Positions 36,652 to 38,101 of a DNA stretch of 38,101 nt are shown one piece after another. The translations under genes were made by a program, and so were the position numbers. Below the pieces are notes generated by a model. The model was not told the DNA's origin, made no database searches, and was given only the letters and a program-made list of their open reading frames with translations. Origin of the DNA: an uncultured Hyphomicrobiaceae bacterium (GTDB taxonomy: Bacteria; Pseudomonadota; Alphaproteobacteria; Rhizobiales; CALHAX01); the NCBI GenBank assembly GCA_937931785.1, contig CALHAX010000087.1:1-38101 (forward strand). The letters are read 5' to 3'. Position 1 is the first letter of the stretch. Every line of letters starts with the position of its first letter.

Positions 36652-36657
36652 CCTCCT
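36652..36657 (-). promoter_or_regulatory. AGGAGG overlapping the dusA stop codon
   Basis: On the minus strand AGGAGG spans 36657 to 36652 and covers part of the dusA TAG (36658-36656). Ribosomes ending dusA would sit on the binding site of the TauE/SafE gene, a layout that favours coupled translation. Confidence 0.55.
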
Positions 36658-37726
36658 ATGCTCCGGCGTTTTCGAGCATACGGCCTGCCGCATTTGGCAC
36701 CTTGGATACAGCATCAAGCGCGCGTTTCAGAACATCGACGCCGGCTCCATCACGCGGTGCATCTTCACTCAAAATACGTCGGAACAGCCGCGCACCCGGC
36801 TGTCCATGGAACAGTCCGAGGATGTGTCGCGTTATACTGTGAAGCCGCACACCATCGCATAACTGGCGTTCAACATAGGGAATATAGTCTGTCACCACGT
36901 CACGACGTGATCGATCTTCAAGCGTATCACCAAATACGCATGCATCGACCTCAGCAAGAATCCAGGGTGTTTGATAGGCTGCACGACCAAACATGACACC
37001 ATCCAGAATTTTCAGTTGAGGTAACGCCCTATCAAGTGCAGACAAACCTCCATTGATCACGATCGTCAACTCCGGATGCGCAGCCTTCAGACGATGAACA
37101 CGATCATGATTGAGCGGAGGAACATCTCGGTTTTCCTTGGGGCTGAGCCCGTTGAGCCACGCTTTGCGCGCATGCACGATAAATGTCGAGCAGCCCGCAG
37201 CCGCAACCGTGGATACAAAGCGCTCCAGATCCGCCTCACTGTCCTGATCATCAATACCGATCCGGCATTTAACCGTGACGGGAACATCAACCGCAGTCTT
37301 CATTGCTGAAACACAGCACGCAACCAGATCGGGGTCGGCCATCAAGGCCGCACCGAAACAGCCGGATTGCACCCGGTCCGACGGGCACCCGACGTTCAGG
37401 TTGATCTCATCGTAACCGAAATCTGCTCCGATCCGCGCCGCCTCCGAAAGCAATGCCGGATCAGATCCACCAAGTTGCAGCGCAACGGGATGCTCCGCCG
37501 CGTCAAACCCGATCAGCCGTTCCCGGTTCCCGTGCACCACCGCTGCTGCCGTCACCATCTCGGTGTACAGCAACGCGCGTCGTGTCAGCACGCGATGAAA
37601 CGCTCGACAATGCCGGTCCGTCCAATCCATCATCGGAGCGACAGAGAACCTATGTGATTGATATTGCACCGATTTTCCCGTAAATTCTGCGTACAAATTG
37701 GGGCTTGCGTACACTTTTGTTCGCAT
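36656..37726 (-). CDS. dusA: tRNA-dihydrouridine(20/20a) synthase DusA, 5' end remodelled by an attachment site
   Basis: Flavin enzyme that reduces uridines 20/20a in the tRNA D-loop. The 356-residue protein has the flavin-binding VAPMMDWTDRHCRAF, NLNVGCPSDRVQSGCFGAALM with general acid Cys123, VKCRIGIDD, FIVHARKAWLNGLSPKENR and VMFGRAAYQTPW. NGLSPKENR is the DusA signature that separates it from DusB and DusC. The first 25 residues (through SVQYQSH) are unlike the conserved part and contain two copies of the TGTACGCA repeat, so the present N-terminus probably comes from an integrated element's attachment site. ATG 37726 lacks a strong Shine-Dalgarno. It is first of the dusA-TauE-ArsC run. 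Confidence 0.93.
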   Translation of the reverse strand: MRTKVYASPNLYAEFTGKSVQYQSHRFSVAPMMDWTDRHCRAFHRVLTRRALLYTEMVTAAAVVHGNRERLIGFDAAEHPVALQLGGSDPALLSEAARIGADFGYDEINLNVGCPSDRVQSGCFGAALMADPDLVACCVSAMKTAVDVPVTVKCRIGIDDQDSEADLERFVSTVAAAGCSTFIVHARKAWLNGLSPKENRDVPPLNHDRVHRLKAAHPELTIVINGGLSALDRALPQLKILDGVMFGRAAYQTPWILAEVDACVFGDTLEDRSRRDVVTDYIPYVERQLCDGVRLHSITRHILGLFHGQPGARLFRRILSEDAPRDGAGVDVLKRALDAVSKVPNAAGRMLENAGA

Positions 37727-37772
37727 TCCTACGTAGCCCTACGCAACCCCAGTGTACGCAAAGTGTACGCAA
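37688..37772. repeat. Four TGTACGCA-type repeats at the dusA attachment region
   Basis: TGCGTACA occurs at 37688-37695 and 37706-37713, and its reverse complement TGTACGCA at 37753-37760 and 37764-37771. The inner copies sit in a perfect 12-base inverted pair: TTGCGTACACTT (37705-37716) and AAGTGTACGCAA (37761-37772). A second imperfect inverted pair, GGGGCTTGCGTA and TACGCAACCCC, overlaps them. The left copies lie inside dusA codons and the right copies just before the recombinase remnant. This looks like recombinase arm or core sites of a dusA-type att region. Confidence 0.7.
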
Positions 37773-37774
37773 AA

Positions 37775-37998
37775 ATGGCCACCTTTCAGAAAAACCGCTC
37801 GGGCACTTGGCAAGCCATCGTTCGACGCAAGGGGTCTTCCACCAGCAAATCGTTCCGGCGCAACGTAAACACACGGGCATTCCAAAAATTCGAAATTAAA
37901 ACTCTTTATTTTCACGATCTACGGCACGAGGCCACAAGTCGTTTTTTGAACCCGGCCTGGACAGTCTGCGTGTGCCTCGGATTCTGCACACCAGCATG
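37775..37998 (+). pseudogene. Tyrosine recombinase remnant of a dusA-targeted integrative element
   Basis: From ATG 37775 the frame reads MATFQKNRSGTWQAIVRRKG, the standard N-terminus of tyrosine recombinases of integrative elements (arm-binding SAM-like start). After about 30 residues it jumps directly to LYFHDLRHEATSRF, the box II HxxR motif that normally lies about 250 residues further on, so an internal deletion has removed the core-binding domain and catalytic Arg I. A run of six T (37942-37947) marks a one-base frameshift; restoring it reads FFEPGLDSLRV..ILHTSM, matching the usual GLD(T)MRV..ISGHKSM. No catalytic Tyr box follows. The frame remains open to the window end but is not recombinase-like after 37998. 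It is inactive by every visible criterion. Confidence 0.85.
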
Positions 37999-38101
37999 CG
38001 GTTACGCAACGAGGCTCGGGCAATTGCCAGCGACAGCAGCACTGAAACCGACACCAAGCGTGGAAGCATGGGGACGGTGGCAAGAAAGAAAAACGCGGCA
38101 G

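Follow-up and report, generated by a model that had tools for sequence, protein, structure and literature searches.

A broken dusA-associated integrase and the probable remnant of its island at the 5′ end of dusA in an uncultured Hyphomicrobiaceae bacterium

The window analyzed here is an entire contig (C87) of 38,101 bases, so the sequence can be read up to position 38101 only. The assembly it belongs to has 134 contigs and is 99% complete. Toward the right end, dusA for tRNA dihydrouridine(20/20a) synthase occupies 36656..37669 on the minus strand (NCBIfam NF008774, E = 2.8e-153). Its likely start is the GTG at 37667-37669, as island-type dusA genes have ATG or GTG at the equivalent place of the alignment, and the frame remains open up to an ATG at 37726. 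On the plus strand, an ATG at 37775 opens a frame reading MATFQKNRSGTWQAIVRRKGSSTSKSFRRNVNTRAFQKFEIKTLYFHDLRHEATS. This integrase stump is divergent from dusA and lies 135 bp off its APMM codon, the distance being 142-211 bp in most intact relatives.

Two pieces of an integrase gene make up the frame. A dedicated profile, built on 13 intact integrases that neighbor dusA in related genomes, matches it at model positions 1-35 (i-Evalue of 9e-10) and 286-308 (8e-8) in a 3-sequence search. The first piece (37775..37873, plus strand) is N-terminal and arm-binding, has ~33 codons, and is also matched in BLAST by a remnant in genome G009 and by intact integrases. The second piece (37871..37969, plus strand) contains the HxxR box, in which HDLR is kept with its H at 37913-37915. 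Since the two pieces lie next to each other, the intervening ~250 residues (~750 bp) are gone. When the region upstream of dusA was scanned in six frames at 114 loci using a ten-sequence profile, the pieces were detected with E values of 0.003 and 3e-6, and they were the sole integrase matches upstream of the window dusA.

The second piece also loses its frame. By alignment, a T6 run at 37942-37947 has one base fewer than in intact relatives, as CGTTTTTTGAA in the window vs CGTTTCTTCGAA at locus L204. The HxxR stretch at 37899-37955 matches annotated plasmid site-specific integrases (blastn, E = 8e-4 to 2e-4), with 57 query vs 58 subject bases. Integrase similarity of the window stops at ~37969, and no first Arg box, GHK box or Tyr box was found in the remnant with the profile and the alignment with relatives.

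No Pfam or NCBIfam family scores above its cut-off on the fused frame. Because Pfam alone stays below cut-off (12.7 bits vs 27.1), the integrase is identified by the dedicated profile, the blastn matches to annotated integrases and its place next to dusA. The dusA-associated tyrosine integrases (DAIs) integrate at the dusA 5′ end, where the island supplies a new 5′ end, and PCR has demonstrated excision (Farrugia et al. 2015, PMC4482086). The window shares with these islands the dusA 5′ target, a divergent adjacent integrase, an island-supplied 5′ end and a semi-conserved att core, and sequence similarity to the family is found over profile positions 1-35 and 286-308. Unlike in those islands, the integrase has lost most of its body. 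From the RHRH tetrad and the nucleophilic tyrosine of DAIs, HxxR is the sole remaining box, and the frame therefore belongs to the family as a pseudogene rather than as a working integrase. Judged by its sequence, it is a broken DAI, and the locus is an ordinary decayed case of this known integrase family. The sequence-only reading had claimed a decayed dusA-type integrase at dusA, an N-terminal recombinase segment fused straight to HxxR, a one-base slip in T6 and a missing Tyr box; all of this is borne out by the place and orientation of the frame, by the profile pieces lying side by side, by the extra base in intact relatives and by the lack of anything integrase-like past ~37969.

The interval between the integrase start and dusA is rich in repeats, as repeated 8-mers occur 19 times there vs a mean of 0.7 and a maximum of 8 in shuffled sequences. 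Two identical copies of AGTGTACGCAA stand in tandem with an 11-bp period at 37751..37772 (plus strand), laid out as the repeats of many intact relatives are. Repeat comparison adds an inverted copy, AAAGTGTACGCAA, matching at 13/13 positions (37705..37717, minus strand), and a degenerate fourth copy (37685-37695). These putative sites resemble arm-type sites of integrases. Many intact relatives have an equal layout but the sequence CGTGTGCA, which is that of most relatives compared, vs GTGTACGCAA in the window. The pair of sites was also used to trace the parent element, and none of 396 other genomes of the order has it. No viral contig had the exact pair; two had a looser form, with no DAI close to it.

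The codons of dusA before APMM (37640..37669, minus strand) are of the island type. With a matrix of 22 intact-island loci they score 31.6 bits vs a leave-one-out range of 0.6-31.1, equaling the best intact islands, and they are near-identical to those at L141, L151 and L127. Within the dusA start, 37626..37654 (minus strand) aligns with a 29-30 bp core that flanks a 61-kb Brevundimonas island on either side (locus L106, genome G397), where it is repeated exactly 61 kb apart as an attL/attR pair. The segment is the equivalent of this att core and would be the dusA-proximal att of the lost element. In four further genomes, no attL/attR pair was found within 60-80 kb. The island-type 5′ end could conceivably be a native look-alike, the comparison genomes being of the same order only. 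The original dusA start of the Brevundimonas genome, now displaced to the attR 61 kb away, is itself of the island type (AAATCAAG...CGTAGG), suggesting that islands inserted one after another at one dusA.

A 46-bp segment (37970..38015, plus strand) begins where the integrase similarity ends. It is 87% identical to C13:24918-24963 in the same genome (blastn, E = 3.5e-9 to 1e-8), and might be a scrap of cargo. On C13, the matching bases close a 154-codon frame located ~130 bp upstream of genes for an efflux adaptor and for a CusA-like pump. This copper-efflux cluster (L120 9498-15171, G000:C13) comprises the 154-codon leader frame, the efflux adaptor, the CusA-like RND pump and a CusF-like protein. 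A match so near to a cusBA-like copper-efflux operon is a hint, suggestive only, of metal-resistance cargo. The leader frame was considered as a conserved protein and rejected, since plasmids gave no match, genomes a single weak one, and Pfam no family. When the tail (37945-38101) was searched as DNA across the order, short chance matches within unrelated genes were all that appeared besides C13, and the tail peptide matched plasmids at E = 4 only. Copper cargo at dusA is already known, since island G08 of Acinetobacter baumannii at dusA carries the copper-resistance genes copABCD (PMC6070778). Unlike the window, G08 is intact and excisable, and it is likened here by the description of its cargo.

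Two further observations concern the tail. A 16-bp direct repeat (14/16) lies at 37797-37812 (GCTCGGGCACTTGGCA) and 38014-38029 (GCTCGGGCAATTGCCA), possibly as a second degenerate integrase start. At 38069-38101, an ATG frame, MGTVARKKNAA, resembles the first residues of a different DAI subtype (MGTVIARKQKDG at L090, MGTVVQRKRSDG at L071); a second integrase was not accepted on this ground, as 11 codons at the contig end are too few residues.

Decay of this kind was surveyed at 94 dusA loci of other genomes (L004-L032 and L040-L119), which were picked by dusA similarity rather than by integrase. Counted by hand from the six-frame scan, an essentially whole DAI is present at 12 loci (L031, L051, L055, L064, L071, L077, L082, L090, L091, L100, L106 and L116) and a broken one at another 12 (L005, L008, L015, L022, L048, L056, L061, L073, L074, L079, L094 and L111), both counts being lower bounds with upstream sequence short at some loci. 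The dusA-proximal integrase start is retained in most broken loci. Stumps are thus about as common at dusA as intact integrases, which makes the find in the window ordinary. Island-type 5′ ends also occur at several dusA genes that lack an integrase altogether (e.g., L081, L043, L045 and L103), and these may be older scars, or native sequence mimicked by islands.

The closest counterpart is G009 of the same order (L008/L198), where an N-terminal piece is likewise fused to a C-terminal catalytic piece beside an island-type dusA. There, the eroded integrase (L198/L008 1190-1420, G009:C210) is a 112-aa in-frame fusion. Unlike the window, it has another joint, its C-terminus is in frame with Tyr kept, and HxxR has become YxxG. 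Because the joints differ (~33/286 in the window, 23/266 in G009 and ~43/326 at L022), the N-terminal and C-terminal fusions are independent deletions.

We consider it about 92% probable that a DAI-bearing genomic island or prophage entered the dusA 5′ end and reset the dusA start, after which its integrase was broken and joined to unrelated DNA. In the proposed course, the element would have inserted into the dusA 5′ end through its DAI-type tyrosine integrase, and recombination would have exchanged the native dusA start for the island’s promoter region, GTG start and first codons, as expected from the family and from the type of sequence now in place. To judge from the relatives, the integrase, reading away from dusA, would then have been inactivated by the ~750-bp internal deletion, the one-base loss and truncation, and unrelated DNA would have come to abut its remnant at ~37969. 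The element would no longer be able to excise through its own integrase. The dusA-proximal stretch would persist because dusA needs it for its transcription and translation start.

What decayed in place was the whole element or, at the least, its integrase. When an element of this family excises, the integrase goes with it and dusA regains its original start (Farrugia et al. 2015, PMC4482086). In the window, the integrase stump and the island-type start both remain and a second att copy was not found in the assembly, so excision is rejected. Thus, when the sequence-only reading spoke of an excised or eroded element with its att region retained, erosion stands, as does the att region with its 31.6-bit 5′ end and aligned core, and excision does not. 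The second att copy that it had suggested looking for is absent from the assembly with up to 3 mismatches allowed, although a gap in the 134 contigs could hide one. While the island-supplied 5′ end and the att core of dusA-specific islands are both present, the far-end att copy is lacking in this 134-contig draft, and the claim is therefore limited to an island remnant, not an island.

It is possible, if rather unlikely, that the element is complete or nearly so past 38101, with only its integrase broken, and could be moved by another DAI in trans. Its right side would lie past the contig end, and the att core and arm sites are intact. However, no second att copy is recognizable in the 99% complete assembly, and neither of the genome’s two Pfam-detected integrases is shown to be of the dusA type.

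It is very improbable that the internal deletion, or the junction with copper-operon-like sequence at ~37969, was produced by misassembly near the contig end. The joints do fall within the last 330 bases of the contig, and the 46-bp match is on another contig. However, the deletion sits inside unique sequence and other assemblies have analogous deletions, and the match is no misplaced C13 read because its identity is 87%, not 100%.

Slighter still is the chance that the fused frame is a retained small gene, whose arm-binding piece binds the kept arm sites and regulates dusA: the sites are perfect copies between the integrase start and dusA, the frame runs from 37775 to the contig end without a stop, and the in-frame fusion of G009 stands at the equivalent place, but the differing fusion points of the window, G009 and L022 indicate separate deletions rather than one conserved gene, and the window frame passes via the slip into unrelated sequence. 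Presumably, from what we know of lambda Int, only about half of the arm-binding domain is kept, which also speaks against it. That the kept N-terminal piece and the perfect arm sites became a small dusA regulator, with similar truncations arising independently in G009 and L022, is the most speculative reading, and we give it hardly any weight.

The locus in the window is a modest addition to the known story of dusA islands. On the preferred reading, that of an eroded island remnant, it illustrates what becomes of an island that has given a gene a new front end: its body is lost and the part on which the host gene now depends stays. Together with the integrase-free island-type 5′ ends, the balance of 12 intact vs 12 broken integrases at 94 loci suggests that many bacteria run dusA from the start of a lost element.
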